From Deltaproteobacteria bacterium (GTDB lineage Bacteria; Myxococcota; Myxococcia; Myxococcales; Anaeromyxobacteraceae), in assembly GCA_016214955.1 (NCBI GenBank), contig JACRMN010000012.1, positions 859,901-923,900 of the forward strand: 64,000 bases of DNA. Reading direction: 5' to 3'. The position numbers were made by a program, and so were the translations under genes. A model generated the notes under the pieces. The model was not told the DNA's origin. It searched no databases and saw only the letters and a program-made list of their open reading frames with translations. Every line of letters begins with the position of its first letter. Position 1 is the stretch's first letter. Below are positions 21,196 through 39,033 of this stretch, piece by piece.

Positions 21196-21528
21196 ATGCC
21201 TCCCAAGTCCAAGGGCGACGACCCGTTCAGCTCGACCGAGAAGCTCATGCAGACGTTCCGCATGCCTCGGGAGCTGGTCACCTTCCTCCGCGGGGAGGCC
21301 GACGCGAGCGGGCGCGACCTCACCGCCTTCGTGAATCGGCACCTCGACGGGCTCCGCACCTGGTTCGGCCTCCCCGAGGCGGCGTCGCTGCTCCTCGAGG
21401 AGGACCGGAAGGCGCTGAAGATGCACCGGTACGAGTACCTGCTCCACCTGCTCTTCCAGCGGAGCCTGGCGCTCCGCGAGCAGGGCCCGGGCTTCGATGC
21501 GCCGGGCGCGGAGCGCAAGAAGAAGTGA
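21196..21528 (+). CDS. Hypothetical protein at the head of the conjugation operon
   Basis: A 110-residue basic, helical protein with a middle segment (FRMPRELVTFLRGEADASGR, then LTAFVNRHLDGL) that resembles a ribbon-helix-helix or accessory DNA-binding protein. No family is assigned. It starts with ATG 8 bp before the next gene's start region and is followed by membrane and pilin genes, so it is probably the first gene of the transfer operon. A regulator or transfer accessory role is possible. Confidence 0.6.
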   Translation: MPPKSKGDDPFSSTEKLMQTFRMPRELVTFLRGEADASGRDLTAFVNRHLDGLRTWFGLPEAASLLLEEDRKALKMHRYEYLLHLLFQRSLALREQGPGFDAPGAERKKK

Positions 21529-21535
21529 GGCGGTC

Positions 21536-21946
21536 ATGCGCGTGGAGCCGGGACAGCGTGCCACGGACGGCAGGGCGGCGTCGGGGTGGGCGCGCATCCG
21601 GCTCCTCCCGCGCCCTGTCCTCCTCCTGGCGGTCGCCTTCCTCCTCTCGGCTCTCGGCCAGGCAGTCGCGGGCCTGATCGCGGCCCTGGAACCGCACCCC
21701 GGTGCGAGCGTGCTCGCCCGGCTGGCGCGCAGCCCGGTGCTGGTTGCCGCGTTGTCGCTCGCCGCGGCGCTCGGCGCGCTGCTCCTCGCGGAGCGGCCGC
21801 GAAGCCGCTCACCGGTGGCCTATGCCCGTCAGCTCCGGGCTCGCTGGGCAGAGATCGAGGCCGACTTCGACGGCGCCCTTCGCCGCCGATCGGGAGGGGA
21901 AGGGGAGAATCGCCATGCACCGGAGGCTCATCCGTCGGAACCCTGA
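21536..21946 (+). CDS. Two-helix membrane protein in the transfer operon
   Basis: A 136-residue protein with hydrophobic helices at about residues 27-48 (VLLLAVAFLLSALGQAVAG) and 66-86 (VLVAALSLAAALGALLLA), and a charged cytoplasmic tail. Its 3' end overlaps the VirB2-like gene by 32 bp. No family is recognised. Position suggests a role in assembling the transfer apparatus. Confidence 0.6.
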   Translation: MRVEPGQRATDGRAASGWARIRLLPRPVLLLAVAFLLSALGQAVAGLIAALEPHPGASVLARLARSPVLVAALSLAAALGALLLAERPRSRSPVAYARQLRARWAEIEADFDGALRRRSGGEGENRHAPEAHPSEP

Positions 21947-22229
21947 TCCCGCCGCCCTGGCCGTCGCCGTCGCGCTCACCGCCCTCGTGGCGCTCTCGCC
22001 GCTCCCGGCCCTCGCCCAGAGCAGCATGCCTGGCCAGCAGCTCCTGCTCTTCGCCCGCAACTACATCATCGCTCCCATCGCGCTCTTCGCGATCGTCATC
22101 ACCGCCGTCGCCGCCTTTATCCGGCCGGAGATGATCAGGGCATCCGGGTACATCGCCATCATCGCGGTGGTCCTGTTCTTCCTCCTCGCCAACGCCGATC
22201 GCCTCCTCCAGGTGATGCGCGCCGGCTGA
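21915..22229 (+). CDS. virB2: VirB2/TrbC-type pilin subunit
   Basis: A 104-residue pre-pilin: a long signal sequence ending near PALAQSS, then two hydrophobic helices (YIIAPIALFAIVITAVAAFI and a second, IAIIAVVLFFLLANA) with a short loop. Size and order fit VirB2/TrbC, the major subunit of the conjugative pilus. The start at 21915 follows GGGGAG. Located directly before virB3, as in most VirB operons. Confidence 0.82.
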   Translation: MHRRLIRRNPDPAALAVAVALTALVALSPLPALAQSSMPGQQLLLFARNYIIAPIALFAIVITAVAAFIRPEMIRASGYIAIIAVVLFFLLANADRLLQVMRAG

Positions 22230-22260: not shown

Positions 22261-22593
22261 ATGATCGCGCCCGTCTACCGGAACCTCGACGCCCCGAGCA
22301 CGTTCCTCGGGCTCGCCTTCCCCGTGGAGTGGCTCGCCGTGCTCGCCGCCGGCTGGGCCGGCACCGCGGTAGGCACCCCGAACGTCGGAGGCGGCGCCGC
22401 GCTCGCCATCTACCTCGTGCTTCGCGTCGCCGGGCATGGCCGGCCGGAGGGCCACCTGCAGCACTGGCTCCTCTGGCGGGTGCGCCAGGTCCAGACGGGC
22501 GGGCGCCTCTCGGCGGCGGCGCGGGCGCGGACGCCGCGCTTCCCGTTCGGCCCCTACGAGTGGCGCGACCCGCCCAGGGAGGGCCGGCCGTGA
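22261..22593 (+). CDS. virB3: VirB3/TrbD-type inner-membrane protein
   Basis: A 110-residue protein beginning IAPVYRNLDAPSTFLGL, typical of VirB3/TrbD, with one or two hydrophobic helices (WLAVLAAGWAGTAVG and AALAIYLVLRVAG) and a basic tail. VirB3 works with VirB4 at the base of the channel. The stop overlaps the virB4 start by 1 bp. Confidence 0.8.
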   Translation: MIAPVYRNLDAPSTFLGLAFPVEWLAVLAAGWAGTAVGTPNVGGGAALAIYLVLRVAGHGRPEGHLQHWLLWRVRQVQTGGRLSAAARARTPRFPFGPYEWRDPPREGRP

Positions 22594-25178
22594 TGCGGGA
22601 GTCTGCGCTCGCCGACCTCCTGCCCCTCTGGCGGACGCTGCGGGAGGGCGGCGTCACTGCCATCGTCACGCCAGCGCTGGACTACGTGGGCGGCCTCGAG
22701 CTCGGGAGCCTCGACGTCCGCTACGCCGGCGAGGATCAACTCGCCTCCATCGGCGAGGCGCTCCGGAGCTTCGTGGGGTCCCTCGACGACGACACCACCC
22801 TCCACTTCCTCTTCGCGGTGCGACGGGGCGCCGAGGAGGAGGTGCGGGAGTACGAGGCCTCCTGCGCCGGGGCGGAGAGCCTCGCGCTCCGGGCCTACGT
22901 CTCGGGCAGGGCGGCCTGGCTCCGGGAGCAGCGGCTCCGCCGGACGCGGGTGTTCCTCTTCTTCGGCGGGCAGGGCGGCCTCCGGCTCGGCCTCTCCCGG
23001 GGTCTCCTCGGGGGGCGCCTCCTCTTCGCGAGCCTCGCGAAGCTCACGCAGGTCGAGCACCAGCGGCGGCTCGTGCGGCTCGCCCAGCTTCGCGACCGGA
23101 TCGCGACGCGCCTCGGCGCGGCCGGCATTCCCGCCCGCGAGCTCGACCTCGACGACGTGTGGCGCGTGCACCACGATCTCCTCAACCCCAGCCGGGCGCG
23201 GCACGGGCTGCCGCCCCCTCGCGTGCGGCTCCGCGACACGCTCTGGTCGGAGGAGACGCTGAAGCGGGAGGGGCGCTGGCTCGCCGAGTACACGGAAGCA
23301 GAGCAGCTCGCCCACGAGGACATCGAGGAAAGCCGAGGCTACTTCCGGCAGGGCGACACCTACCGGAGGGTCTGCACCCTCAAGGTGCTGCCCGAGGGCG
23401 GCACCTCCTGCTTCGCGCTGGAGCCGCTCCTCGGCCTCGCGACCGCGGCGGGGCCGCTACCGTACACGCTGGCCGTCACGGTGCACGTCCGGTCCCAGCG
23501 GCCGGCCCGCTGGCTCCTCAACAACCAGCACGCTCTCGTCCAGAGCCTGCGCCAGGTGATGCCGTTGCTGGAGCGCCACACCGTCGAGCAGGAAGAGGCA
23601 GACCGCTCGAAGCGCGAGGCCATCCGCGGCCTCTTCGAGGAGCTGTCCGCGATGAGCAGCAAGATCGCCTCCCTCTCGGCCTCGCTGCTCCTCGAGGCCG
23701 GCTCGCTCGACGAGCTCGACGCCGCCACCGAGGCGGCCCGGAGCGCCTTCTCGGCCGCCGGCAACTCGGAGCTCCTCGCCGAGGAGGTCACGCAGGTCCC
23801 GGCCTTCCTCTCGATGGTCCCCGGCGCCGGCCGATACCAGCTCCGCCGAAAGGGCTGCACCAGCCGGAACGCGGCTGACTTCCTGCCGGTGTACGCGCCC
23901 TGGCGCGGGACGGCCCGGGCCGCGAGCCTCCTCCTGACGCCGACGGGCGATGCCTTCCGCTTCGACCTCTTCGACAAGTCGAGCGGCGTGAACGCCCACC
24001 ACGGCATCGTCGTCGCCGACACAGGGTCCGGGAAGAGCGTGACCCTGGGCGCGCTCACCCTCGACGCCCGCGCCGCCGGCATCGAAGCCATCCTCATCGA
24101 CAACGGGCGCTCGTGGGCGCCGCTCACGGAGCTCCTCGGGGGAGTCCACATCTCGGTGGATCTCTCCACGTCCATCTCACCGTTCCTCAGCTACGCCCAG
24201 CTCGCCGGCCCGGACGGGACCATCTCCAACGAGGAGATCGAGCACGCGGTCCAGTTCATCGAGGTGTGCGTCGCCGACCGGACGCGGCCTCCCTTCGACA
24301 ACGTGGAGCGCGAAGTGGTCTCCCGCGCCGTGCGCTGGCTCTACGAGACGCGGTTCCGGCCACACCCGGAGGAGCCGGTGCTCATCGGGAACGTCTCCGA
24401 GGCGCTCGCCACGCATCCCTGGACCCACCCGAACGATCGCTCCATCGCCGAGGAGCTGGTCCGGCGGCTCGGCATCTACTGCACCGGCCTCTACGCGGAC
24501 CTCCTGAACCGCCCCTCCAAGCTCCGCTTCGACGCCCCGCTCCTCACCTTCGACCTCGCGCGCATCTCGGAGAGCGCCGGGACGCGCGCGGTCGCCATGG
24601 CCACCATCATCCAGGCCATCACCAACCGGGCGATGGCGCGGCGGACCCGCACGCTCGTCGAGGTGGACGAGGGGCACGAGTACCTCGGCCAGGACGACGC
24701 GACCGAGCGGTTCCTCGGCGGCTGCTACCGGAAGATGCGGAAGTACGACACCGCAATGTGGATGATCTCGCAGAACCTAGCCGACTTCCTCGGGTCGCGG
24801 GTGGGGCGCGAGGCCATCGTCGGGAACAGCACCATCCGCATCTTCCTGCGCCACCTCGCCGGGAAGCATCAGGCGGTCATCGGGCACTTCGGCCTCTCGC
24901 CCCGCGCGGCCGCGGCCTTCGCCGGCCTCGAGATGAAGCCCGGCTGGTACAGCGACTTCCTCCTCATGTACGGGGCGCGGACGGCGGTGGTGCGCCTCGC
25001 GCTCCACCCGCTCGCCTACTGGCTCCTCACCACCGACAGGGAAGACCAGGACTTCCTCACCCGCGCCGCGGCGAGGAACCCGCGCCTCGACCGGCTCACG
25101 CTGCTGCGGGAGCTGGCGGCGCGATACCCCCACGGCGTCGTCGGGCGGGCTCCCGCGACCGGCGCCACGGCGGCGTGA
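22593..25178 (+). CDS. virB4: VirB4/TrbE-type secretion ATPase
   Basis: Energises pilus assembly and substrate transfer at the inner membrane. The 861-residue length is usual. Walker A is GIVVADTGSGKSVTLG (about residue 472) and the Walker B region LVEVDEGHEYLG (about 686). Further ATPase motifs include WMISQNLADFLGS. The N-terminal third is the VirB4-specific domain. It overlaps virB3 by 1 bp. Confidence 0.93.
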   Translation: MRESALADLLPLWRTLREGGVTAIVTPALDYVGGLELGSLDVRYAGEDQLASIGEALRSFVGSLDDDTTLHFLFAVRRGAEEEVREYEASCAGAESLALRAYVSGRAAWLREQRLRRTRVFLFFGGQGGLRLGLSRGLLGGRLLFASLAKLTQVEHQRRLVRLAQLRDRIATRLGAAGIPARELDLDDVWRVHHDLLNPSRARHGLPPPRVRLRDTLWSEETLKREGRWLAEYTEAEQLAHEDIEESRGYFRQGDTYRRVCTLKVLPEGGTSCFALEPLLGLATAAGPLPYTLAVTVHVRSQRPARWLLNNQHALVQSLRQVMPLLERHTVEQEEADRSKREAIRGLFEELSAMSSKIASLSASLLLEAGSLDELDAATEAARSAFSAAGNSELLAEEVTQVPAFLSMVPGAGRYQLRRKGCTSRNAADFLPVYAPWRGTARAASLLLTPTGDAFRFDLFDKSSGVNAHHGIVVADTGSGKSVTLGALTLDARAAGIEAILIDNGRSWAPLTELLGGVHISVDLSTSISPFLSYAQLAGPDGTISNEEIEHAVQFIEVCVADRTRPPFDNVEREVVSRAVRWLYETRFRPHPEEPVLIGNVSEALATHPWTHPNDRSIAEELVRRLGIYCTGLYADLLNRPSKLRFDAPLLTFDLARISESAGTRAVAMATIIQAITNRAMARRTRTLVEVDEGHEYLGQDDATERFLGGCYRKMRKYDTAMWMISQNLADFLGSRVGREAIVGNSTIRIFLRHLAGKHQAVIGHFGLSPRAAAAFAGLEMKPGWYSDFLLMYGARTAVVRLALHPLAYWLLTTDREDQDFLTRAAARNPRLDRLTLLRELAARYPHGVVGRAPATGATAA

Positions 25179-25189
25179 AGGAGACGGCG

Positions 25190-26116
25190 ATGCGTTGGCC
25201 AAGGGTGCAGACGGTTGTGGGCGTGGTCCTCTCGGCGGCGGTGACCCTCTACGGGGCGAAGGCGGCCGCGTTCCTGGACATCGGCGGCAACGCGCTGCTC
25301 GCCGACCTCCTCGCGAACGCGACGAAGCAGCTCGCGGTGGCGACCCAGAGCCTCGCGCTACTGCGCCGGAGCTACGCCGAGGCGCGCAAGGTCGCGGACT
25401 ACGCCGAGGAGGCCGCGGAAGCCGCCCGCTCCTTCCAGCGGGTTGCGAGCACGCGGCTCGGCGATCGCTTCCTCGCCGACCTCGATGCCGCCGGGCCGGA
25501 CCTCGCTCGCTACCGGCGCGACGCCCTCGGCGCCGCTGGCATGTCGGGGAGCGACTGGGCGAGCGGAACGGGAACGCTGCGGGGCCTCTCGACCTACTGC
25601 CTCGGCGGCGCAGGCCAAGGGCGCACGGGCTGCGTGAAGCTCGGGAACGAGCTCGCCGCGGAGAAGGTGCTGGCGGCGCTCGGAAGCACGTTCGGTCGCC
25701 CGGGGACGCTCGGAGCGCTCGAGGCGGGGGCGGTGGACGCGGAGGTGGCCGCGGCCATCCAGGGAGACGCCGCTCAGGCCCGGCTCGCCTCGCTGCAGAA
25801 GGCGCGGGTCCGCGAGCTTCTACGGCGGTGCAACAGCGCGAGCCCTGTCGCGACCGCGCGCCAGGCGAAGCGGGTCGCAGAGGAGTGCCGCGCCGCCGCC
25901 GAGCAGGCGCAGCTCCTCCACCTCGAGGAGGGGCAGGAGACGAACGCCAAGCTCTCCCAGCTCGCGCGCCTCCAGGCGGTGGGGGTCGAGCAGAAGAATG
26001 GCGACCTGAAGCGCGAGCTCACCGAGCAGGCGGCGCGGAGGGCGGGGCTCACCGCCGGCCTCGACGACCTCGCGCGGCAGCGCGTCTCCATCAAGAGCGG
26101 CGGGCTGGAATTCTAG
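25190..26116 (+). CDS. virB5: VirB5/TrbJ-like protein
   Basis: A 308-residue secreted protein: a signal peptide to about residue 25 (AKAAAFLD), then LADLLANATKQLAVATQSL, a long helical body with coiled-coil character, and two Cys pairs. This matches TrbJ/VirB5 proteins, which sit at the pilus tip. It lies between virB4 and virB6, the usual order. Family call by pattern and position. Confidence 0.75.
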   Translation: MRWPRVQTVVGVVLSAAVTLYGAKAAAFLDIGGNALLADLLANATKQLAVATQSLALLRRSYAEARKVADYAEEAAEAARSFQRVASTRLGDRFLADLDAAGPDLARYRRDALGAAGMSGSDWASGTGTLRGLSTYCLGGAGQGRTGCVKLGNELAAEKVLAALGSTFGRPGTLGALEAGAVDAEVAAAIQGDAAQARLASLQKARVRELLRRCNSASPVATARQAKRVAEECRAAAEQAQLLHLEEGQETNAKLSQLARLQAVGVEQKNGDLKRELTEQAARRAGLTAGLDDLARQRVSIKSGGLEF

Positions 26117-26118: not shown

Positions 26119-27273
26119 ATGTCCGTCATGAGGGCCCGCGCAGATGTCCTGCTCCTCCTCGCTGTCGCGGTGGCGGTCGTGCCGCTCGCCGCCCTGGCCG
26201 CCGAGGCCGCGCCCCGGGATATCGTGCTCGACTTCCAGCGGCCCGGGCCGATGCGGGACCTCCTCGGGAAGTCGATCGGCTTGGCGAAGAGCTTCCTCTT
26301 CCTCGCCGCCTTCCTCGGCTACGCGCTGGAGGCCTTCGGCCGGTCGCCCACGTCGGAGAGGGACTACGGCGCCGTGACCTGGCGGGTCGTCGCCGTCCTC
26401 TTCCTCCTCTGGAACTACCAGCCCATCTTCGGGTCGGTCATCAACCTCATGGACCGGGTCGAGCAGGAGGTCGCGCCGCCCTCCACCTGGGAAGCGCTCA
26501 AGGCGGCAGTCACGCGAAACCAGATGGCTCTCGAGGAGCTGTCGGCCCACGGCGAGGCGACGCAGCCGCACGCGGAGGGCCAGCGACCGACACCGGCCCG
26601 GAAGCCCTCGACCCTGACCTCGTGGGTGTACGAGGCGCTCGTCACCATCCTCCAGCTCCTCGGCGAGGGGCTCGTCTTCCTCATCCGCTGGATGTCCCGA
26701 GTTCTCACCGCGACGCTCTTCATCCTCGGGCCGCTCGCCCTCGTCGCCGGCATCCCGCGGGTGAGCAGCACGGGTTCGCGGTGGTTCCTCCGCTTCGTCA
26801 CCATCGCGAGCTGGCCCGTCTTCGCCGGGGTCCTCCTCGCGGTCCTGGTGGCCCTCGGGGGTCAGGGCGCGCAGTACCAGAGCTATCTCCAGTGCCTGGT
26901 GGCGTCGCTCGTCATGCTGGTGACCGCGCTCGCAACCCCGGTGCTCGCTAGCCAGGTGGTGGGCGGCGCCCTGCAGAACTTCGCCGGGACGGGATTCGCC
27001 GCGGCGAAGGCGGTCCACCGCGACGCCGTCGTGCCGGCGGCTGGCCTCGTCGTGGGCGTGGCGAGGGGGACAAAGAGCCTCGCCTTGGCCGCTGCAGAGA
27101 CCATTGCCGCGCGCCGCGCCAGGAAGGGCGCCGGAGGCGAGCAAGGAGGCCAGGGGCCCGGGCCGGCCGCCGGCGGCAGGGGCGGGCAGGGGAGCGTCGT
27201 TGCCAACTCACCGGAGAAGCCGGTGGGCGGCAACGGCGCGGGAGCGCCACGTGGTCCCAGGAGCGCCACGTAG
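26119..27273 (+). CDS. virB6: VirB6/TrbL-type polytopic membrane protein
   Basis: A 384-residue protein with a signal-like start, then at least five hydrophobic helices (for example FLFLAAFLGYALEAFG, AVLFLLWNYQPIFGS, ATLFILGPLALVAGI, VFAGVLLAVLVALGG), and a Gly/Pro-rich low-complexity tail. TrbL/VirB6 forms part of the inner-membrane channel. The segment LFILGPLALVAGIPR is typical. It starts two bases after the virB5 stop. Confidence 0.82.
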   Translation: MSVMRARADVLLLLAVAVAVVPLAALAAEAAPRDIVLDFQRPGPMRDLLGKSIGLAKSFLFLAAFLGYALEAFGRSPTSERDYGAVTWRVVAVLFLLWNYQPIFGSVINLMDRVEQEVAPPSTWEALKAAVTRNQMALEELSAHGEATQPHAEGQRPTPARKPSTLTSWVYEALVTILQLLGEGLVFLIRWMSRVLTATLFILGPLALVAGIPRVSSTGSRWFLRFVTIASWPVFAGVLLAVLVALGGQGAQYQSYLQCLVASLVMLVTALATPVLASQVVGGALQNFAGTGFAAAKAVHRDAVVPAAGLVVGVARGTKSLALAAAETIAARRARKGAGGEQGGQGPGPAAGGRGGQGSVVANSPEKPVGGNGAGAPRGPRSAT

Positions 27274-27312: not shown

Positions 27313-28059
27313 ATGGAAGGGAAGACCGTCATCCGGACCGATCGAAGGGGCAGCCGGGCGCCGCCGGGCTCGCCGCCGGCGATCTGGGCGGCGTTCGCGG
27401 CCCAGGGCCGGTGGAAGAGCTGGACCATCGCCGGGCTCCTCGGGCTCGTCTCGCTCCAGTCCCTCGCGATCGCTCGGCTCGTGTCCCAACCGCCGGAGGT
27501 GGTGCTCGTGAGCGCCGCGGGAGACGCGACACCGGTCGGCCGCTCGGTGGCGACCGACGCGCTCCTCAAGTTCCTGGCCGACCGGACCCGCCCGCCGGAC
27601 GTCGCTGTGGTCCGCTTCACCCGCGACTTCCTCCACCTTGCGCTCGGCGTCAACTCCAGCACGGTCGATGCCGCCTGGCCGGCCGCGCTCGCCATGATGG
27701 CACCGGAGCTCCGCGCCCGCCTCGAGCGGGAGGCGGCCGAGAAGCACCTCGTCGAGGCGTGGCGGCTGGCCCAGCGGAAGACCGAGCTCACCTTCGAGGA
27801 GATCGTTCTGGAGGAACGCCCGCCCGGCCTGGTCGCCATCCGGGCCCGACTCACCCGGCGCACCGGGCCGCTCGTGGAGGGGGCGGCGGGGAGTAGTACC
27901 GATCGGGTGCAGGTGGACCTGGTCGCCCGGACCACGGCGCCGACCATCGAGCGTCCGGACGGCCTGGAAGTGGCCGAGTGGCGCCTCACGCCCCTCCCGG
28001 TTACGGACACCCCGCCCACACCGAGGGCGAAGGCCGAAGGAGGCGCCCATGCGCCCTGA
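27313..28059 (+). CDS. virB8: VirB8/TrbF-like protein
   Basis: A 248-residue bitopic protein: a cytoplasmic N-terminus of about 35 residues, one membrane helix (WTIAGLLGLVSLQSLAIARL), and a periplasmic domain with the alternating helix and beta pattern of VirB8/TrbF. VirB8 links the inner-membrane and core complexes. Similarity is weak apart from layout and position. Its end overlaps the DUF2381 gene by 11 bp. Confidence 0.7.
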   Translation: MEGKTVIRTDRRGSRAPPGSPPAIWAAFAAQGRWKSWTIAGLLGLVSLQSLAIARLVSQPPEVVLVSAAGDATPVGRSVATDALLKFLADRTRPPDVAVVRFTRDFLHLALGVNSSTVDAAWPAALAMMAPELRARLEREAAEKHLVEAWRLAQRKTELTFEEIVLEERPPGLVAIRARLTRRTGPLVEGAAGSSTDRVQVDLVARTTAPTIERPDGLEVAEWRLTPLPVTDTPPTPRAKAEGGAHAP

Positions 28060-28972
28060 TCGAGTCCGAAGCCTCGCGGCGGTGCTCGTACTGGCCGCGA
28101 CGGCGGAGGCCGCCGGAGCGGCCGAGCCGAAGAGCCCGCCCCGGCGGGAGCTCCGCCGCCGGACGCTCGTCGTCGACGACCAGAGCATCGGCTCGCTCGC
28201 GGACCTTCACGTCGCCGGGGGCTCCGCCACCATCCTCAGCTTCGAGGTGCCGGTCGAGCCGAAAGGCGCGCTCATCATGGGCACGCCGGAGCTCTTCCAC
28301 CCGCCGACGCAGTCCGACCGGACGGTCATCCTCGTCCCGAAGGTGGACCTCGTGCGGCCCGTCCCGCTCAGCATCGCGCTCGCCGACGGAACGGCGCTGA
28401 GCTTCAGGATGCTGACGGCACCGCTGGACGCGGACGTCCAGGTGGACGTGATGCTGAAGCTCAAGAGCCGCGCGCCGCCCGAATCTGCCGAGGCCCTGCG
28501 CACCACCATCGCACAGCTCCGGAGCGAGCTCGACGAGTGCCGAGGGTCCTCGGTGACCGCGGGAGCGGCGAGGCTGGCGGCGCTCCTACTTGCCCAGAGC
28601 CTCGACGAGCCACTGGCGTTCGAGCGCCACTCGATGCGCGGCGGCGACAGGCAGCGTCGGCTCATCGTCGAGGCGCGCTGGGTCTACAGGCTCGTCGGCC
28701 TCACCTACCTCGTCTTCAACGTGGCCAACCGCGACCCCGACCGGTCGTGGGTGTTCGACCGGGCCGAGGTGAAGCTCACCGGCGGCGCCGAGCCGGCGGA
28801 CCTCCCGGTCCTCGCCTCCGCCGCGAGCGCGGACGTCCTCGCGCCGGGCCAGGAGAGCAAGGTGATCGTCGCTTTCAAGACGCCGGCGCGATCCACCTCC
28901 CACCGGTACGCCGTCGCGTTCGTCGAGCGGGACGGGGACCGGAGGGTCGTTCTCGAGGGGCTGTCGCCATGA
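28049..28972 (+). CDS. DUF2381-family protein in the VirB9 position
   Basis: A 307-residue exported protein: signal peptide to about residue 25, then a beta-rich region (TILSFEVPVEPKGALIMG and VDLVRPVPLSIALADGTALS), a helical middle, and a second beta domain (LTYLVFNVANRDPDRSWVF). I recognise DUF2381/TIGR02268, a family expanded in Myxococcus. Here it occupies the slot where VirB9/TrbG would be, and the N-terminal strand pattern resembles VirB9. No other VirB9 candidate exists in the operon. It overlaps the kinase-VirB10 gene by 4 bp. Confidence 0.75.
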   Translation: MRPDRVRSLAAVLVLAATAEAAGAAEPKSPPRRELRRRTLVVDDQSIGSLADLHVAGGSATILSFEVPVEPKGALIMGTPELFHPPTQSDRTVILVPKVDLVRPVPLSIALADGTALSFRMLTAPLDADVQVDVMLKLKSRAPPESAEALRTTIAQLRSELDECRGSSVTAGAARLAALLLAQSLDEPLAFERHSMRGGDRQRRLIVEARWVYRLVGLTYLVFNVANRDPDRSWVFDRAEVKLTGGAEPADLPVLASAASADVLAPGQESKVIVAFKTPARSTSHRYAVAFVERDGDRRVVLEGLSP

Positions 28973-31296
28973 CCGCGCCGGGGATCAAGCCCAACTACCT
29001 GATACCGGGGACGGTCGTGGGTGCCTACCGCGTGGAGGAGCAGATCGGCGGGGGCGGCTTCGGCTTCGTCTACCGGGTGATGCGCGACGGCAAGACGTAC
29101 GCGCTCAAGATCGGCCAGGCGCGCCTCTCGGAGCTCGGCGCCGAGGAGCGGGTCGAGACGCTGGAGCGGCTCGAGCGCGAGGTGGCGGCGCTGATGAGCC
29201 TGCGCCACCCGAACATCGTCCGCGTTCACTCCTACGAGCGATGGCCCGACCTGGAGGGCGGGTTCCCGTACCTCGTCATGGACTACGTGGAGGGGAGGCC
29301 GCTGCAGGAGTGGCGAGAGCGCGCCCGGCCCTCGCTCGCCCGCGTCGCCGCGGTCTTCGAGAGGATCGCCGACGCGCTACAGCACATGCACGCGCTCGGC
29401 ATCATCCACCGCGACCTGAAGAGCGAGAACCTCATCGTGCGCCAGGTCGATGGCGTCCCCTTCATCGTCGACTTCGGCATCGCCCGCCCGGTCCTCGCCC
29501 GGAACGTAACCCAGGCCTCGGCCGTGGGCACGCTCACCCACCTCGCGCCGGAGTACGCGACGTTCCTGGACTCGGCCGAGGGGAGGCGGGGGGCGCCCTT
29601 CGACTGGCAGCCGGCGACCGACCTCTATGCCCTCGGCTACGTGCTCTACGAGGCGCTCGCTTGCGAGCCGCCCGTGCCGCGCTTTCCGGAGCGGACCGCG
29701 CGGGCGGAGTCGGAGCTGCTGAACGCCGTGAAGAGCGTGGTCCCGAGGCGGCCGAAGGAGATCGAGCCGCGCATCCCGGAGGCGCTCGACGAGCTCGTCA
29801 TGCAGCTCATCGAGAAGGACCCGCGGAAGCGACCCCAGTCGGCCGAAGAGGTCGGAAGGCGGCTCCGCGACGCGCGCGAGGCGGGGGAGGCACTGGAGGC
29901 GGCGGCCTGGGCCCGGCCGCTCGATGTGCCCGGAGCAGGTTCGGAGCCAGCCGCCGGCGAAGACGCGCGACCCGAGCCCGCCGTGGGTGGCGAGGAGGAG
30001 CTGGCGCCGCTCGAAGCCGGGGACGAACCGAAGGCCGCTGCCGCGGGGAAGGACGACAAGGCGGCCGCGCCGGCAACCGGCGCGTGGCCGCGCAAGGAGC
30101 AGCGTCCTCCTGCGCCAGCACCGCGCCCTTCGCCAGCCGTCTCGGTGCCGACGGAGGGGGGATCCCCCGCGTACGTCGGGGGCCCCGAGGAGGCCGCCAG
30201 GGCGGAAGAGCGGAGGCCCGTGGAGCACTCGCAGGTGAGCCAGATCCTGAGGCGCGCCGCAGCCGAGTTCCCGACTGCGGCCCCGGGGCCCCGGCGCTGG
30301 AAGGTTGCTGGTGCGGCCGCGGCGGGTGTGCTGGTGCTCGTCAGCGTCGCCCTCGCCGCAGTTGCGATGCGGGACGCGTCGAGACAGCCAGCGGCCAGGA
30401 CCCTGCTCGCGGGGACGGAGTCGCCCGGGAGCCAGGGCCCTCCCGCGCTCGCGGATCCACCTGCGGCGGCGCCCTCGCCCGCGCTGACCCTGCCGGCTGC
30501 TCCCTCGGGGCCGGCGCCCGGCGCGGACATGGATCGGTCCGCCCTCCCGTCCACCGCGGCCAGGCGGGCGCGACCGAGCGGAGATGCCCGCGCCAGAGAC
30601 GAAGAACTAATGCGGGAGCCCGGGCGCCCCGCGGACCCGCCGGATGGCCGGCTTGCGGAGACGCCGCCGGCGGAGGTGGGTGAGCCGAGCGGCCTCCTGC
30701 GATCGAAGCCGCTGGGTGCCGAGCCGCCCGGCCTGCTCCGGTCGGTGACCCTGGACCGCGGGGAGGCGCGGAAGCCGGCGAGCCGCGGCGTGGTCTTCGG
30801 TTCGCACATACAGGCGCGGCTGCTCACCAACCTCGACACCCGGACCATCGGCAACGGCCCTGTCGAGGCCCTGCTCCACGTCCCCTTCATCGTCCGCGGG
30901 AAGGTACTCCTGCCGAGCCGCACCATGGTCTACGGCACGGCGGCCGAGTCCGGCGGGCGGTTCACGATCCGGTTCACGCGGATGCGGCTTCCGGACGACA
31001 CGGACCTCACCTTCGAGGGCATCGCACTGGCGCGCGATGACGGCAAGCCCGGACTCGCCGCCTCGGGGCGCATCGGCCAGGAGCCGAGGCGGGGGGAGGG
31101 GCTCGGCACCAAGGTGGCGAGGGGCACCGGGAACCTCCTCCTCGACACCGTGGCCGGGGGGCTGGGGCAGGACATCGCTCGCGGCGCCGGCCAGGCCGCG
31201 CTCAACCACGAGGAGGCGCCGCCCGTGAGCAGCGAGTGGGCGCTCCTCCTCGACGCGGGCGTCGTCTTCGACGTCTTCGTCGAGAGAGCGTTCTGA
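28969..31296 (+). CDS. Ser/Thr protein kinase fused to a VirB10/TrbI-like periplasmic domain
   Basis: A 775-residue single protein. About residues 15-310 form a Hanks-type kinase with all key motifs: GGGGFGFVY loop, the VAIK-type Lys in YALKIG, HRDLKSEN, DFGIARP and the activation segment VGTLTHLAPE. A Pro/Ala/acidic linker follows, then one membrane helix at about 443-465 (VAGAAAAGVLVLVSVALAAV). After a Pro-rich stretch, residues 608-775 match the VirB10/TrbI core: GSHIQARLLTNLDTRTIGNG, VLLPSRTMVYGTA, DTDLTFEGIAL and a final beta strand. This is the only VirB10 candidate in the operon. Confidence 0.85.
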   Translation: MTAPGIKPNYLIPGTVVGAYRVEEQIGGGGFGFVYRVMRDGKTYALKIGQARLSELGAEERVETLERLEREVAALMSLRHPNIVRVHSYERWPDLEGGFPYLVMDYVEGRPLQEWRERARPSLARVAAVFERIADALQHMHALGIIHRDLKSENLIVRQVDGVPFIVDFGIARPVLARNVTQASAVGTLTHLAPEYATFLDSAEGRRGAPFDWQPATDLYALGYVLYEALACEPPVPRFPERTARAESELLNAVKSVVPRRPKEIEPRIPEALDELVMQLIEKDPRKRPQSAEEVGRRLRDAREAGEALEAAAWARPLDVPGAGSEPAAGEDARPEPAVGGEEELAPLEAGDEPKAAAAGKDDKAAAPATGAWPRKEQRPPAPAPRPSPAVSVPTEGGSPAYVGGPEEAARAEERRPVEHSQVSQILRRAAAEFPTAAPGPRRWKVAGAAAAGVLVLVSVALAAVAMRDASRQPAARTLLAGTESPGSQGPPALADPPAAAPSPALTLPAAPSGPAPGADMDRSALPSTAARRARPSGDARARDEELMREPGRPADPPDGRLAETPPAEVGEPSGLLRSKPLGAEPPGLLRSVTLDRGEARKPASRGVVFGSHIQARLLTNLDTRTIGNGPVEALLHVPFIVRGKVLLPSRTMVYGTAAESGGRFTIRFTRMRLPDDTDLTFEGIALARDDGKPGLAASGRIGQEPRRGEGLGTKVARGTGNLLLDTVAGGLGQDIARGAGQAALNHEEAPPVSSEWALLLDAGVVFDVFVERAF

Positions 31297-31303: not shown

Positions 31304-31957
31304 ATGCGTCCCACGGGCCTTGCCGCTGCGCTCGCGATCGCAACCGCCGCAGTGCCAGGCGTGGCCAGGGCGGACCAGGGTGCGCTGACCCTCGAGCTCG
31401 GGCCGGCTCTCACATGGTGGCCGGGCATGGGGCCCGCGGTCGGCAGCGGGGGAGGTGTCAACGGAAGCTCCGGCGGCGGCATGATCGGCGTCCGCTACGG
31501 GCTCCGCCAGGGCCTCGACCTGACCGCGGCCGGCTTCTACGAGGCACCCGCCCGCTTCAGCAACCCCGGGACGGCCATCGACACCGGCGGTGCGCCGGCC
31601 TCCGGGACGTTCACGGCCGAGACCAGCAGGTGGGGCGTTCTCCTTGGTGCCCGGTGGATCCACGGCTTGGCGCTGCGATGGTTCGTGGGCGGCGAGGTGG
31701 GCTGGTCGCGCCAGACCTTCACCGGGCTCGACCTAGTCAACGTCTCCGACCCGACGAACCCGCACACCTTCGGCCTCGGGCTGGCGGACCGGGGCAAGAG
31801 CGCGCTCCTGCTCTCGCCGCTCGCCGGCGTCGAGTGGCAGTTCGCGGGCCGGTGGAGCATCGCGTTCACGCCGAGGGTGCAGGTGCTGGTGGGTGGCGCG
31901 GGAAAGGTGGGAGTCGTGTTGCCGGTGAGTGTGGGGTACAGTTGGTACGGCCTGTAG
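31304..31957 (+). CDS. Outer-membrane beta-barrel protein
   Basis: A 217-residue protein with a signal peptide (to about residue 23, VARADQ) and many amphipathic strands ending in an aromatic C-terminal strand (VGYSWYGL). The pattern, with GARWIHGLALRWFVGGEVGW, is that of small outer-membrane barrels. It follows the kinase-VirB10 gene by 7 bp, so it may be part of the outer-membrane end of this transfer channel. Its stop abuts the stop of the convergent GHKL gene. Confidence 0.75.
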   Translation: MRPTGLAAALAIATAAVPGVARADQGALTLELGPALTWWPGMGPAVGSGGGVNGSSGGGMIGVRYGLRQGLDLTAAGFYEAPARFSNPGTAIDTGGAPASGTFTAETSRWGVLLGARWIHGLALRWFVGGEVGWSRQTFTGLDLVNVSDPTNPHTFGLGLADRGKSALLLSPLAGVEWQFAGRWSIAFTPRVQVLVGGAGKVGVVLPVSVGYSWYGL

Positions 31958-33979
31958 TCACCCTTGGCCCTTCGCCCCCCTTGGCGTTGAAGCCTGCTCA
32001 AGTACCTCAGGGAAGTTCTTTTGGAGATACTCCGAAACACTCAGCTCGCGCGACTTCTGATCCAGATGGTCACGGACCAGGCGCATTTCTGAACGAGCAC
32101 GGTCGATAATCTCCCCCCACGAGAGAACCCACACGGTTGCGTTCTCGTACTCGCTCACGAGCCCAGGTTCCTTGTTCTTCTGTCTACGCTGAAGGTCTAT
32201 CTCGGGCTTGATGTCAGAAGACACCAAGAAGACATCCCAGGCTGTCATGGCCTTGTCGAACTGTGGTGATGCCATCACCGTTTGCGCGTACCGCGCCGCC
32301 TGCTGCAATTCCTTCCACCCAAGCGGAACCGACGGTGCCTTGAGCTCCACGAGGAGGTGCCGATTCGACGGGACGGTCGGATACTCTCGCTTCGCCGCGA
32401 GAAACAGATCCGGGATGTCACCCAGCCCAGTCGCGGTCTTCAATTCGGCTTCCGGGATGTCCGGTAGTCCCGCCTCTTCCCGGTGTCGCCGAATCACTGT
32501 CCGGAAGTTCTTGTCGCTGGTGGCGAGATGATACGCGGGTCCAAAGATCCAACAGTTGGGCTCCAGGATCTTGTGGAGTTGGCTCCGCTCTTTGAGCGAC
32601 CCTGCTGCATCCCCGTACACGAGGGAGTGCAGGATATCCAGGAACTCCAGCCTGGCCGTTACTTCGGACGAGAGTCGGATCAGTGACTGAAGGGTGGTTC
32701 GCTCAAGGACTCGGCGGAACTTCTCCATGTCCTCATCGGAGAGCTTTGCGACCTCATGTAAGATGTCGAGCAGATCCTCGTTGTCGAGTGACCGGTTAAG
32801 CAGGCTGAAGATCACTGCCTGCTGCTTCATAGTCATGCCCTCGACATTCGCATGCTCATTCATGCGTTCAAGCACGACGTCGAAGATTGCCTTCTTCGCC
32901 TCCACAACCGCGTTGGCGGAAGGCACGCGAAACGGGTAGAACGCTTGCTCGCGCGCCCTTTCCAGGAATGTGGACTTCCTCCCTTCGCGAACTCGCTCCG
33001 CAAAGTGTGCGACCTCTGCCAAAGCAGCGTCCTTGAGCTGCGCAAAGCCCGTGTCCAACTCAACGACGCCCTCGCGATTCGCTGAGACAATAGAGTCGAG
33101 GTAAGTCGACTCGACGATGCCAAGGTAGTTGGACGAGGCGACATCATCGGCAAGGCAACGATGGACCGTCCGGCCCTTGCCTGTGAAGAGAACTCGTCCG
33201 GCAACGCGGCTTTCGTCGAGCGGTCGGTGCAAGAGAAGATGGTGCAGGCGCACAGGGACATCGACCCGCGAGATCCCTTGAAGCTCTTGGAGTTCGCGCG
33301 ACTCGACAATTGAGGCCACGTCCAGAGGCTCGCCATGTACCGCTATCACGTGGCGAGGATTCCCAAGCAGGTACGAGCAGAACTGAGACAACAGGTCTGA
33401 CCGCAACCGCGCGACGAAAGCTGCCTCGAACTCCTGGTCGAGGGCGTTGAAGATCTTGATCGTGGTGCCAGTCGGTGTCGCAGGTGCAACGCTGCGCACT
33501 TCAACTCTGGGAGAGCTTCGATCATCGGACCGCAGCGTGAAGGTGCTCTGGACGCGAGTCCCATGAGCGCCCTCGGCCACAGTAGTCCATTCACTTATCG
33601 TCCCCAGCCTATGAACCGCGAAGCGGCCGACCCCAAATCGGCCGAGGCGTGCGCTCGCGCCGGCCGCGTTTGGCGACACTCCAATCACCGCGAATCGTTG
33701 CTTAAGGTCCTCTCTAGACATGCCGCGCCCGTTGTCGGACACCTCGATTCCCGCGAGCCCGCCAAGCGGGTTCGCTGAGGTTTCGATCTCCACACGCGTC
33801 GCGCCAGCATCCAGAGCGTTCGCGATCAGTTCACCGACCGCGGTCGATGCCGCGGCATACTTGGCGCGGCCGAGGTGCTCCGCGACGAGGCGTGGCTCGT
33901 AGACCCAGTTCAGGTCATACGAGCTCACAGGCGGGTTCCCGCGGTTCCTGGGGGTCAAGGTGCGCTGGCGGCGCGACAT
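31958..33979 (-). CDS. GHKL ATPase with C-terminal Shedu-like nuclease domain
   Basis: The 673-residue protein begins with a Bergerat-fold ATPase: ELIANALDAGAT (E50, N54), VSDNGRGM (D82, G84, G86) and GRFGVGRF. A helical middle follows. About residues 465-580 contain WIFGPAYHL, then PDLFLA and LLVELKAPSVPLG with a downstream Gln/Tyr pair, as in DUF4263/Shedu PD-(D/E)xK nucleases. The arrangement suggests ATP-gated nuclease action, probably in phage defence. It is opposite to the transfer genes and lies between the operon end and a decayed virD4 start, consistent with late insertion. Confidence 0.75.
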   Translation of the reverse strand: MSRRQRTLTPRNRGNPPVSSYDLNWVYEPRLVAEHLGRAKYAAASTAVGELIANALDAGATRVEIETSANPLGGLAGIEVSDNGRGMSREDLKQRFAVIGVSPNAAGASARLGRFGVGRFAVHRLGTISEWTTVAEGAHGTRVQSTFTLRSDDRSSPRVEVRSVAPATPTGTTIKIFNALDQEFEAAFVARLRSDLLSQFCSYLLGNPRHVIAVHGEPLDVASIVESRELQELQGISRVDVPVRLHHLLLHRPLDESRVAGRVLFTGKGRTVHRCLADDVASSNYLGIVESTYLDSIVSANREGVVELDTGFAQLKDAALAEVAHFAERVREGRKSTFLERAREQAFYPFRVPSANAVVEAKKAIFDVVLERMNEHANVEGMTMKQQAVIFSLLNRSLDNEDLLDILHEVAKLSDEDMEKFRRVLERTTLQSLIRLSSEVTARLEFLDILHSLVYGDAAGSLKERSQLHKILEPNCWIFGPAYHLATSDKNFRTVIRRHREEAGLPDIPEAELKTATGLGDIPDLFLAAKREYPTVPSNRHLLVELKAPSVPLGWKELQQAARYAQTVMASPQFDKAMTAWDVFLVSSDIKPEIDLQRRQKNKEPGLVSEYENATVWVLSWGEIIDRARSEMRLVRDHLDQKSRELSVSEYLQKNFPEVLEQASTPRGAKGQG

Positions 33980-35540: not shown

Positions 35541-37388
35541 GTGGCATCCGATGCTCGTAGCCCCTCCTTCCCGATCCTGAGCCGCCTGGCGGCAGGCTCC
35601 GCGGGCATCCTTCTTTCCCTCGAGCTCCTCTACCGCTGGCAGACGCTGCTCGGCCGCGAGCCGCTCCCACTGCCGGGCTACCTCCGGGAGCAGGCCTACG
35701 CGGCGCTCTCCCGCTATTTGCCGGCCCGCGCCTGGGCTTCCACCCACCCCGGCCTGGCGCTCGCCCTCGGGCTACTCATCCTGGGCCTCGCGCTCGTCGC
35801 CTTCCGCTACTGGCTCATCTTCTGGCGGAATCAGGTCGGCGCCCGGCTGTCCGGCACTTACTTCAAACAGGACGACGGCCGGTTCCCGGTCCGGCCGGTG
35901 AACCTCCTCCGGGAGCTCGCGCGCCGGCCGCAGGGGCTCACCCTCGTGGGCCTCACGCCGCAGCGGGGCCTGCTCGGCTGGCGCTGGAAGCCGGTCTACC
36001 TGGACGAGCGGCAGCGAACCACGCACCGCCACGTTCTCGGCAAGACCGGCTCCGGCAAGACGCTCTCCGTCCTCTGGCCGCAGGTCCTGCAGGACGTGCT
36101 CGACGGCAAGGGGTGCGTCGTCGTCTCGGGAAAGGGGAGCGACGAGGAGATCGGCATCGTCAAGGCCATCGCCCAGATCGCGAGACGGGAGCAGGACCTC
36201 CGGGTGTTCGCCCTGCCGGCCTGGAACCAGTCGGCCATCCCGAGCCACACCTACAACATGGTGTGGGTCGATCCGCGGACGCCCGACGGCGCCGGAGGCG
36301 ACCCGACCGCGGTGGCCGAGCGGGTCTTCTCGGTGCTGCCCATCGGCGACCACAGCTACTACAACACGCAGGCCCAGCTCATGTTCACGAACCTCTGCCG
36401 CCTGCTGCACGGCATAGTGGACGAGGAGGGGCGCGGCCTGCCGTTCACGATGCGGGACGTGGCCCTCTGCCTCAAGGCCATCGGCAACCGCAACGAGGCC
36501 TGGGCGCGCGCGCTCGAGCACTGCCTCACGGCGTCGCTCGACCAGGAGGCCGCTCGCGAGATCGTCTCGCAGGTCGACCGGCTCGGCCACGAGATCCACA
36601 AGGTGCTCTCGGGCCTCGTGGGCGCGGTGGACAAGTTCCAGGCGCCGCTCGTCAACGCCTACGCGCCCGACATCGTGATGCGCGAGGTGCTGGAGCGGAA
36701 CCTCATTCTCTACGTCCAGCTCCCCTCGAACCTCTTCAAGATCCAGGCGCCCTCGCTCGGCAAGGTCTTCCTCATGGACATCCAGCAAGAGGGGAGCCTG
36801 CGCCAGGTGTTCCGGTCGGTGCGGAACCAGAGGCCCTTCAGCGTGGTGGTGGACGAGTTCGGGCGCTTTGCCGACCTCACCTTCGTGGATTCCATCAACC
36901 AGCTCCGCGACGCCAACCTCCAGTTCACCGTCGCCCACCAGTCGCTCGCCGACCTGGAGCTCGTGAGCCGCGAGTTCGCCAACGCCGTCTGGGACAACAC
37001 CCGCATCAAGGACGTGCTCTCCCAGGACAACCCGGCGCTCTGCGAGATGCTGGCGAAGAGCATCGGCACCCGGCAGGAGATCGTGAGGACCGTCCGAGCC
37101 GAGCCCGGTCCGCTCTTCACCTCGCTCGCCACGCGCGAGTCCTCGACGCGGTCGGTGGAATCCTACCGGCTCCATCCGAACCGCATCCGGAACCTGGCGC
37201 GCTGCGGGCAGGGCTACCTCTACACCGACTCGACGCTCCACCCCATCTGCTACGGGCAGCTCCCGCCGATGAAGGCGAGCTACCCGCTGCCGAGCCGCGG
37301 GTCCTCCGGCCGCGGACTGCGCCTCTACGAGACCTTCGTGGAGCGCTCGCCGCTGAAGGCCTTCGCGCACGTGAGGAGGCTGTCATGA
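35541..37388 (+). CDS. virD4: VirD4/TraG-type coupling protein
   Basis: Hexameric ATPase that brings transfer DNA to the type IV channel. The 615-residue protein has two N-terminal membrane helices (about residues 15-35 and 75-100), Walker A GKTGSGKT (about 168), Walker B SVVVDEFGRF (about 435), and TraG motifs such as ILYVQLPSNLFKIQ. It starts with GTG. The stop overlaps the next gene by 4 bp. It heads a second transfer operon with a primase and a replication-relaxation protein. Confidence 0.92.
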   Translation: MASDARSPSFPILSRLAAGSAGILLSLELLYRWQTLLGREPLPLPGYLREQAYAALSRYLPARAWASTHPGLALALGLLILGLALVAFRYWLIFWRNQVGARLSGTYFKQDDGRFPVRPVNLLRELARRPQGLTLVGLTPQRGLLGWRWKPVYLDERQRTTHRHVLGKTGSGKTLSVLWPQVLQDVLDGKGCVVVSGKGSDEEIGIVKAIAQIARREQDLRVFALPAWNQSAIPSHTYNMVWVDPRTPDGAGGDPTAVAERVFSVLPIGDHSYYNTQAQLMFTNLCRLLHGIVDEEGRGLPFTMRDVALCLKAIGNRNEAWARALEHCLTASLDQEAAREIVSQVDRLGHEIHKVLSGLVGAVDKFQAPLVNAYAPDIVMREVLERNLILYVQLPSNLFKIQAPSLGKVFLMDIQQEGSLRQVFRSVRNQRPFSVVVDEFGRFADLTFVDSINQLRDANLQFTVAHQSLADLELVSREFANAVWDNTRIKDVLSQDNPALCEMLAKSIGTRQEIVRTVRAEPGPLFTSLATRESSTRSVESYRLHPNRIRNLARCGQGYLYTDSTLHPICYGQLPPMKASYPLPSRGSSGRGLRLYETFVERSPLKAFAHVRRLS

Positions 37389-37645
37389 GGCCGAAGAAGG
37401 CGGCGCCCGCCCCGAGGCGCATCATCAAGGTGGGCGGCCTGTACCGCGACAGAGCGCGGGGCGTGACGGTCACCGCCGAGGACCACGAGATCCGCGATGC
37501 CCACCGGACCGGCCGCATCCTCGTCCGCGCCGCCGACGGCATGGCCCGGTTCCCGCGGCGCTGGTACTCCCGGGACGTGGACCTCACGGAGGTCCAGGGT
37601 GACCTCGCGAACTTCATCGACGCGGACAGCGGGGTGCGGCCGTGA
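37385..37645 (+). CDS. Small basic protein between virD4 and primase
   Basis: An 86-residue highly basic protein (RPKKAAPAPRRIIKVGGLYRD start) with a predicted beta-rich core (GVTVTAEDHEIRDA). No family is recognised. It overlaps virD4 and the primase gene by 4 bp at each end, so its dose is tied to theirs. It may bind nucleic acid or act as a coupling-protein accessory. Confidence 0.65.
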   Translation: MRPKKAAPAPRRIIKVGGLYRDRARGVTVTAEDHEIRDAHRTGRILVRAADGMARFPRRWYSRDVDLTEVQGDLANFIDADSGVRP

Positions 37646-39033
37646 TCCCCGAGGCGGTCATCGAGGAGATCCGCTCGCGGGTGGATTCCGTCCAGGTCAT
37701 CGGGCGGCGCGTCGAGCTCCGGAAGAGCGGGAGCTCCTTCTCGGCCTCCTGCCCCTTCCACCCTGACCGCACGCCCAGCTTCCACGTCTTCCCCGACTCG
37801 AAGCGCTTCAAGTGCTTCGGGTGCGGCGCGCGCGGCGACGTGTTCGAGTTCCTGCGCCGCTTCGAGGGAAAGGACTTCAGGACGGCGGTGCGCGACCTGG
37901 CCGCTGAGGTCGGGGTGGTCATCCCCGGCACCGGGCAGGAGGGGGCGGGGCCGGCAGCCACTTCCGCAGCCGACCCCGGCCGCGCGGTGCTCGAGCGCGC
38001 CTGCGAGGCGGCCGCGGCACACTGGACGGAGCGGCTTTGGAGCGACGCGGGCGCGGCGGCGCGGCGTTACCTCGCCGCGCGCGGCATCCAGGAGTCGACG
38101 GCCCGCCAGTTCCGGCTCGGCTTGGCCCCGCGGGAGTGGCACGACCTCGAGGAGGCGCTCGTCGCCCGGGGCTTCTCGCGCGAAGACCTCCTGCGGGCTG
38201 GCCTCCTCCGCAAGAGCGACAAGGGCGAGCCTCCTGCGCACGACCGCTTCCGGGGCCGGCTCATATTCCCCCTCGCCGCCGGCGATCGCAGCGTGGTCGG
38301 CTTCGCGGGGCGCGCGGTGGCGGACAGGGAGGGGAGCGGCGAGCCGAAGTACCTGAACAGCCCCGAGACCCCCATCTTCAGGAAGGGGCACCTCCTCTTC
38401 GGGCTGCCCGAGGCGCAGGCGGGCATCCGCTCGGCGCGGCGTGCCGTGCTGGTCGAGGGCTACTTCGACGCCGTCGCGGTTCATCAGGCGGGTGCGCGAG
38501 ACGTGGTCGCCTGCGGCGGGACGGCGCTCACGGAGCACCAGATCGGTCTCCTGCAGCGTGCCGGCTGCACGGACCTGGTCCTGCTCTTCGACACCGACCC
38601 GCCGGGCCTCGACGCACCGGCCGTGGCGGCGCCCGCGCTCCTCCGGTCCGGCCTCACGGTTCGCGTGGCGCGCCTACCCGGTCCCGCCTCGACGGACCCC
38701 GCGGCCCACCTGCACGCGGCAGGCCCCGGGAGCCTGCCCGGCGTGCTCGACGCGGCCATGCCGCTCACCGAGTGGCTCATCGAGCGTGCGATCGCGGGGA
38801 GGACGCGGCCAACCGGGATCCGCGGCCTCTCCGTGGAGCAGAAGCTCCTGGTGGTGCGGGACCTGCGCCCCTTCGTGGCGGCGGCGCGCCCGGGGCTCCC
38901 GCGCGCCCTCTTCGAGCAGCGCCTCGCGCGGCGGCTCGAGCTCTACATCGTGGCCCTGCGGGCCGAGCTCGGTCGCGGCGACGGGCGCGAGGTGCAGGCA
39001 ACCCGGGCAGGAGGCGCGCCATGGCACGCGTGA
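37642..39033 (+). CDS. DnaG-type DNA primase
   Basis: A 463-residue primase. The N-terminal CHC2 zinc site is CPFHPDRTPSFHVFP with CFGCGARGDVFEF. The Toprim domain has VLVEGYFDAVAVHQ (about residue 268) and LLFDTDPPGL (about 314), in which the acidic pair D-T-D is kept but the usual AG is PG. The C-terminal helicase-binding domain is short. It is probably used to start complementary-strand synthesis after transfer. It overlaps the replication-relaxation gene by 13 bp. Confidence 0.9.
   Translation: MIPEAVIEEIRSRVDSVQVIGRRVELRKSGSSFSASCPFHPDRTPSFHVFPDSKRFKCFGCGARGDVFEFLRRFEGKDFRTAVRDLAAEVGVVIPGTGQEGAGPAATSAADPGRAVLERACEAAAAHWTERLWSDAGAAARRYLAARGIQESTARQFRLGLAPREWHDLEEALVARGFSREDLLRAGLLRKSDKGEPPAHDRFRGRLIFPLAAGDRSVVGFAGRAVADREGSGEPKYLNSPETPIFRKGHLLFGLPEAQAGIRSARRAVLVEGYFDAVAVHQAGARDVVACGGTALTEHQIGLLQRAGCTDLVLLFDTDPPGLDAPAVAAPALLRSGLTVRVARLPGPASTDPAAHLHAAGPGSLPGVLDAAMPLTEWLIERAIAGRTRPTGIRGLSVEQKLLVVRDLRPFVAAARPGLPRALFEQRLARRLELYIVALRAELGRGDGREVQATRAGGAPWHA

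Follow-up and report, generated by a model that had tools for sequence, protein, structure and literature searches.

At the position that VirB9 holds in a type IV secretion system (T4SS), the 64,000-nucleotide stretch of myxobacterial DNA analysed here (the window, from genome G000) carries a gene of DUF2381, a domain of unknown function, and the protein kinase gene that follows it ends in a VirB10-type domain. The locus raises the question of whether DUF2381 is a VirB9-type core subunit, as a sequence-only reading of the window had proposed, and what this would mean for the many DUF2381 genes of Myxococcaceae that lie outside such operons.

The DUF2381 gene and its operon

The open reading frame at 28049-28972 (forward strand, codon GC 0.74/0.50/0.92) encodes 307 amino acids, and among Pfam family profiles the protein matches DUF2381 (PF09544) only, with E 8.7e-54 and 183.2 bits against a cut-off of 29.2. 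TIGR02268, which NCBIfam calls "Myxococcus xanthus paralogous family", is the same family, known by name only, and the protein scores barely above its cut-off (78.0 bits against 76.15). The gene is the single PF09544 match in its own genome, and the profile matches in 78 of 195 Myxococcota genomes, with at least 10 copies in many of those of Myxococcaceae (f4), in agreement with the earlier description of a family expanded in Myxococcus. A literature search that covered few subscription journals found no paper naming DUF2381, TIGR02268 or DUF4138, and a term search of PMC7694542 gave neither VirB nor paralog.

DUF2381 overlaps its neighbors at both ends, by 11 bp with the VirB8 gene and by 4 bp with the kinase-VirB10 gene. 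By eye, the N-terminus resembles a signal peptide, with an Arg-containing start, a hydrophobic stretch and a site of the A-x-A kind, whereas a 19-residue hydropathy scan called no segment there. Export to the periplasm, as stated earlier for this protein, is plausible.

The operon, on the forward strand throughout, is headed by a small gene of 110 amino acids (21196-21528) that has no Pfam match and is kept at the operon head in relatives. There follow a VirB2/pilin-like protein of 104 amino acids (21915-22229), with hydrophobic stretches seen by eye and a homologue in the same slot of relatives, and a VirB3-like protein of 110 amino acids (22261-22593), identified by length, hydrophobicity and position; in the window the names VirB2, VirB3, VirB5 and VirB6 reflect place and membrane pattern. 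The VirB4/TraC-type ATPase (22593-25178) matches TIGR02746 (TraC-F-type, 1.1e-64), TIGR00929 (6.8e-37), P-loop_TraG (3.2e-17) and TraC_F_IV (2.6e-7). The protein in the VirB5 position (25190-26116) has no match in Pfam or NCBIfam, and that in the VirB6 position (26119-27273) is a polytopic membrane protein with seven hydrophobic stretches, a conserved slot and a weak TraJ match (0.028). The VirB8/TraE-type inner-membrane protein (27313-28059) has a weak match to TraE (PF05309, E 0.0076), a single N-terminal transmembrane segment at residues 39-57 and likewise a conserved slot. Beyond DUF2381 lie the kinase-VirB10 fusion of 775 amino acids (28969-31296), in which a Pkinase match (4.8e-38) and a TrbI match (3.4e-7) are separated by a transmembrane segment (449-467) and a proline-rich linker, and a probable outer-membrane beta-barrel-type protein (31304-31957), recognized by eye and without a family, which is a conserved companion of the operon and has homologues both in related genomes and on the Myxococcus plasmid described below. 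Further on are the VirD4/TraG coupling protein (35541-37388; TraG-D_C 2.5e-10, T4SS-DNA_transf 5.6e-9), a DnaG-type primase (37642-39033; DNAG_N 5.6e-34) and a replication-relaxation protein (39021-40151; PF13814, 4.7e-15). This general annotation recognized neither a VirB7 nor a VirB11.

Since the operon has this gene set, and since the same full set is present on the circular plasmid NZ_CP123279.1, the window most likely includes part of a conjugative element. Adjoining the conjugation genes, PADLOC assigns five genes at 43786-58671 to proteins of the MADS defence system, namely mad2 (2.2e-55, with a stronger methyltransferase match alongside), mad5 (8.2e-7), mad6 (9.8e-66), mad7 (8.2e-62) and mad8 (6.1e-27), and by this adjacency they are likely cargo of the element. 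A reverse-strand gene at 31958-33979, between the T4SS operon and VirD4, has lower GC3, a start resembling an HSP90/histidine-kinase-like ATPase by eye, and a weak restriction-enzyme match (PADLOC, 1.2e-9).

The order VirB8, DUF2381, kinase-VirB10 was also seen in genomes G019, G021, G013, G020 and G029, in G110, G146 and G160 (two copies in the last), and on three contigs of G053, which belongs to another order (L097 and L098 found with the DUF2381 profile, L096 by Pfam match). A fourth G053 contig, L188, has in the same slot a relative that PF09544 missed. In the census of DUF2381 genes described below, DUF2381 stands between VirB8 and kinase-VirB10 in all 12 T4SS operons that are not cut there. 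The complete, circular, 64,379-bp plasmid NZ_CP123279.1 of Myxococcus sp. MxC21-1 carries the whole T4SS set: its annotation lists a TraC family protein, a DUF2381 family protein, a protein kinase, a TraM recognition domain and replication-relaxation, and profiles match VirB2, 3, 4, 5, 6 and 8, DUF2381, kinase, VirB10, the barrel protein and VirD4. Window, relatives and plasmid thus agree in placing DUF2381 in the VirB9 slot, as had been claimed from the window alone. MOB-suite types this plasmid (L210/L211) as non-mobilizable despite its full T4SS of the DUF2381/kinase-VirB10 kind, and plasmid-typing tools may miss this T4SS family.

A different setting is found in two genomes with a canonical CagX T4SS, G003 and G126: some 10-15 kb from that system lies a DUF2381-like gene with a kinase-TrbI gene (L185 4980-7839 and L186 9535-12732). 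PF09544 scores L185 at 7.4e-6, under its cut-off, and does not match L186; in profile comparison the two together match the DUF2381 sets at 65-97%. G004 and G016 may share this setting, as each has a second, weak TrbI match.

Predicted folds of DUF2381 and of the kinase C-terminus

A blind AlphaFold2 (AF2) model of DUF2381 was built from the mature window protein and nine relatives, and has a mean pLDDT of 79.6 and a pTM of 0.48; with 10 sequences and these scores, the mutual arrangement of its two domains is unsure. Foldseek against the PDB returned 14 matches with E<=1e-3, of which ranks 1-6 are VirB9-type chains of T4SS core complexes (7spb and 7oko of the F plasmid, 7muc twice and 7mue of Dot/Icm, and 8rt6_B of R388; E 6.3e-9 to 3.3e-5) and the remainder comprise FlaF/FlaG, chains of COPI and a single antibody chain. 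The identity of the six chains as TraK, DotH and TrwF is taken from the entries, chain sizes and papers, TrwF/VirB9 being named in the 8rt6 title only. TraK, CagX and DotH are termed VirB9 homologues (PMC8617172, PMC9371333), and a strand of TraB is described as joining the sandwich of the F-plasmid VirB9 homologue TraK (PMC8617172).

With VIA-align, the best eight rows for the DUF2381 model are again all T4SS core chains, at Z 13.6-10.8. The CagX/CagY entry 6x6j (Z 13.6, 112 residues, rmsd 3.4), Dot/Icm 7mue (Z 13.4, 108 residues, rmsd 3.1) and R388 7o3t (Z 11.1, 102 residues, rmsd 3.0) are among them, as are longer alignments to X. citri 6gyb (Z 11.6, 195 residues, rmsd 15.7) and F 7spb (Z 11.1, 196 residues, rmsd 14.8); in 7muc both domains are aligned in order, over model residues 5-282 (190 residues, rmsd 14.3). 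From the ninth row (Z 10.5) onward, matches cover only the C-terminal part of the model, so that the N-terminal domain is the part specific for VirB9 in these comparisons, and the C-terminal domain, as modelled, has a fold that is compatible with VirB9 and also common. The structural comparison with VirB9 that had been proposed as a check thus comes out in favor of the VirB9 idea.

If DUF2381 were instead an unrelated two-domain beta protein, Ig-like and perhaps a periplasmic sensor or stator in the manner of FlaF/FlaG, standing in the VirB9 slot by chance, the behavior of its C-terminal domain would be expected, as widespread folds of the Ig-like type match that domain nearly as well (COPI ears, and adaptin ears and FlaF/FlaG at Z 9-10.5), and so would the missing sequence link to CagX. 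The N-terminal domain is harder to accommodate, with T4SS core chains as its sole matches among the 50 rows listed (Z 10.8-13.6), as are the retention of the slot across families and in another order and the TraN and DUF4138 matches of a distant relative, and such a chance placement is quite improbable.

Sequence comparison gave a more divided result. Against seven Myxococcota CagX (PF03524) proteins, hhalign returned 0.4% and 1.3%, with a best value of 3.3%, so the profile comparison suggested alongside the structural one found no link to CagX-type VirB9. Searches of PDB sequences by phmmer and hmmsearch with the DUF2381 queries P0001, A1 and L098 gave nothing relevant, and A4 gave just weak VirB10-type matches (6gyb 0.04, 2bhv 0.66); proof of VirB9 kinship by sequence alone failed in both approaches. 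Among viral contigs no relatives of P0001 were found. CagX itself is present in 7 of 189 Myxococcota genomes examined and absent from G000, and among those seven PF09544 matches in G126 only.

The more distant relatives reach further. TraN is the presumed VirB9 of the Bacteroides conjugative-transposon system. L098, the G053 protein in the same slot, matches Bacteroides TraN (TIGR03780) over most of its length (6.9e-6, residues 19-284) and DUF4138 at 3.9e-5, both scores being under the curated cut-offs, and the window protein has zero match to either profile. L097 matches TIGR02268 weakly (0.0016) and DUF4138 at 0.051, with TraN unmatched in NCBIfam, and L188 matches CagX at 0.014. DUF2381 resembles the group of VirB9, TrwF, CagX, DotH and F TraK in its slot between VirB8 and VirB10, its two predicted beta domains and its best fold matches, and differs from it in having no PF03524 match and in being partnered by a kinase-fused VirB10.

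That partner was modelled separately with AF2, from residue 600 of the fusion (30769-31296) together with six relatives. The TrbI profile scores the fusion at 30.7 bits, under the Pfam cut-off of 35, which its kinase-VirB10 relatives in G021 and G013 pass. The model has a pLDDT of 75.2, with a low-confidence region at residues 106-155, where the two-helix antenna of VirB10 would be expected, that contains a single helix (135-146). Foldseek returned 25 matches with E<=1e-3, each of them a VirB10-type chain from a T4SS core complex, and VIA-align gave 14 entries between Z 16.0 and 8.8, all of them T4SS core complexes, before falling to 3.2. On this model the C-terminal domain of the kinase has the barrel fold of the VirB10 C-terminus. 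The fusion is like VirB10, TrbI and TraB in its C-terminal barrel, transmembrane segment and proline-rich linker, and unlike them in that its cytoplasmic part is a Ser/Thr kinase, with G-loop, Lys, HRDLK..N, DFG and APE motifs all intact (about residues 20-292).

Solo copies and their VirB10-like partners

The surroundings of DUF2381 were surveyed in a census of 53 genes from 21 genomes, chosen as near relatives or low-copy genomes with G000 left out, in which two genes split into two matches each, and one match listed twice, were merged; the gene caller was crude (GC3-based), and the census and partner counts use profile matches to open frames. VirB8 is alongside in 14 of the 53: 12 of these have kinase-VirB10, and the other two are truncated by the end of the contig. 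A further gene, at a contig edge, has kinase-VirB10. Without VirB8 are 34, comprising 32 with a kinase and VirB10-like end, one with a free VirB10-like lipoprotein and one with a contig-cut kinase. A VirB10-type domain is in view for 46 of 53 genes, cut away by the contig for three and missing for four, each of them either incomplete or at the end of its contig (one in G116, three in G033). The expected co-occurrence of DUF2381 with kinase-VirB10 fusions is found, as is the frequent adjacency of DUF2381 and kinase genes that had been described for Myxococcus. The idea of a VirB9 role had been said to fall if DUF2381 genes are usually apart from secretion genes, and taken literally this is so in Myxococcaceae (34 of 53 census genes); those genes nevertheless retain a VirB10-type partner, and because profile comparison ties this partner to T4SS VirB10 the idea is not refuted by them.

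In the copy-rich genomes, where single loci were read (L021-L049), the neighbor is more often a small VirB10-like protein (23 of 29) than a kinase (5 of 29; one cut), and this small free partner is a probable lipoprotein. Two such proteins had no family in Pfam or NCBIfam. In profile comparisons whose unrelated control pairs all remained at or below 1.3%, kinase C-termini matched T4SS kinase-VirB10 at 96.6% (E 6.6e-10) and canonical VirB10 at 72% (E 3.4e-5); small proteins matched kinase C-termini at 99.8% (E 5e-30), T4SS kinase-VirB10 at 15.2% (E 0.0017) and canonical VirB10 at 0.5%; and T4SS kinase-VirB10 matched canonical VirB10 at 19.4% (E 0.0012). When four small proteins and nine kinase C-termini were pooled, this partner domain matched T4SS VirB10 at 97.6% (E 3.5e-12) from separately built alignments.

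A profile of the Myxococcaceae VirB10-like domains (A5) matched 65 places in 13 genomes. In G000 its single place is the VirB10 part of the window fusion (E 5.9e-5), in G053 it matches kinase-VirB10 (6.4e-4), and in G013 and G019 it has no match although both have the same kinase-VirB10. With G083 set aside, the eight Myxococcaceae genomes of this set account for 45 places. Of these, 35 lie no more than about 3.5 kb from DUF2381 or from a fragment of the gene, two are at the ends of contigs, and the remaining eight are small genes standing singly; seven of the eight are of one kind, with one per genome. Loci L190-L196 and L208 have a small VirB10-like protein with no DUF2381 alongside, and in the three such loci that were read the neighbor is a POTRA/BamA-like gene. 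Two cysteines are invariant in the A5 columns of the solo VirB10-like domain (C40 and C126 of L021, 2403-2894) and could form a disulphide.

The solo domains are short at one particular end. After the last barrel anchor, 89-93 residues follow in T4SS kinase-VirB10s (nine of nine) and 98-100 in canonical VirB10s (the three of seven fitted by pattern), against 30-49 in solo Myxococcaceae domains (63 of 68 measured). The missing stretch is that which holds the antenna of VirB10, proposed as the outer-membrane channel in PMC9371333, and for this reason a channel of the usual type is not likely to be formed by the solo modules. A number of copies, L197, L201, L202 and L207 among them, are short or disrupted, as would be seen if the solo pairs were decayed, functionless T4SS remnants; the long open frames, the retention of pairs in many genera and the conserved partner-domain cysteines make such decay very improbable as an account of the pairs.

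A tree of 69 DUF2381 proteins, midpoint-rooted and with no outgroup, has a branch (support 93/78) that separates the 52 solo Myxococcaceae copies from the rest, and another (100/98) that bears 11 T4SS copies. Within it 25 solo copies, including loci with the small partner, form one 100/100 group, and the T4SS copies of G053, four in number, join two ICE-type copies (99/94). Under a midpoint root either direction of evolution is conceivable, and DUF2381 might have begun as part of an envelope sensor that worked with a kinase and a VirB10-like domain, the trio later being recruited by T4SSs and secretion being derived. The lack of an outgroup root leaves room for this order of events, most DUF2381 copies are solo, and the G003 and G126 pairs stand apart from the canonical T4SS; yet in the tree as drawn T4SS copies flank the solo Myxococcaceae group on both sides, the solo VirB10-like domains miss a region that T4SS VirB10 has, and the 14 solved matches of the VirB10 domain above Z 3.2 are all T4SS core complexes. 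A sensor-first origin is, on balance, unlikely.

A probable kinase-linked secretion core and its proposed reuse

The kinases themselves bear on the age of the association. Compared with four Myxococcaceae genomes, the window kinase domain gave 444 matches (for one genome, the best 150 of 199 candidates). Pair-type kinases, recognized from an adjacent DUF2381 gene or gene fragment or from a VirB10-like end (n=23), take 22 of the top 26 places among the 444 matches listed, the 23rd (G094:8583460) being far down. Among the matches listed, the kinases closest to that of the window are thus those of the pair type, which supports the suggestion that the DUF2381-kinase pair is an old functional unit. 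Among 49 census kinases, some of which are contig-cut or not pair kinases, the strict HRD..N pattern is present in 39 and the DFG pattern in 47; since 10 and two, respectively, miss these patterns, some may be degenerate. A second kinase-like gene of about 400 residues is often near the DUF2381-kinase pair (L057 12533-13759, L102 5639-6835, L105, L106 and others).

Taken together, the computed family membership, gene order, folds, partner-domain homology and co-occurrence argue that DUF2381 is very probably a VirB9-type subunit in the core of a conjugative, kinase-linked T4SS, and that this VirB9-kinase-VirB10 core has been reused in Myxococcaceae, perhaps for envelope signalling. In the assembly that we infer, exported DUF2381 would contribute its N-terminal beta domain to the periplasmic ring as the inner (I) layer, with the C-terminal beta-sandwich packed round the VirB10 barrel. 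The fusion would present an active kinase to the cytoplasm, cross the membrane once and reach its barrel through a proline-rich periplasmic linker. With VirB10 on the same chain as a membrane-spanning kinase, the state of the channel or envelope could be coupled to cytoplasmic phosphorylation, in either direction. In Myxococcaceae the trio would have become independent of the T4SS in what looks like a single event, with loss of the antenna region of VirB10 and expansion to at least 10 copies in many genomes, and in one subclade the VirB10-like domain would have become a free small lipoprotein.

A further proposal is tentative, its chances being put at slightly less than even: that Myxococcaceae turned a conjugation core into a family of sensor kinases, in which VirB9-like and antenna-less VirB10-like domains form the sensing end and the kinase signals inside, the T4SS of the window being a link that does both transfer and signalling. 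The VirB9-type reading, for its part, assigns DUF2381, which has at least 10 genes per genome in many Myxococcaceae, a role that can be tested, and it introduces a T4SS in which VirB10 bears a protein kinase. A group of myxobacterial kinases would be explained as built round a secretion-core domain, and the question of what these kinases sense would become directly testable.
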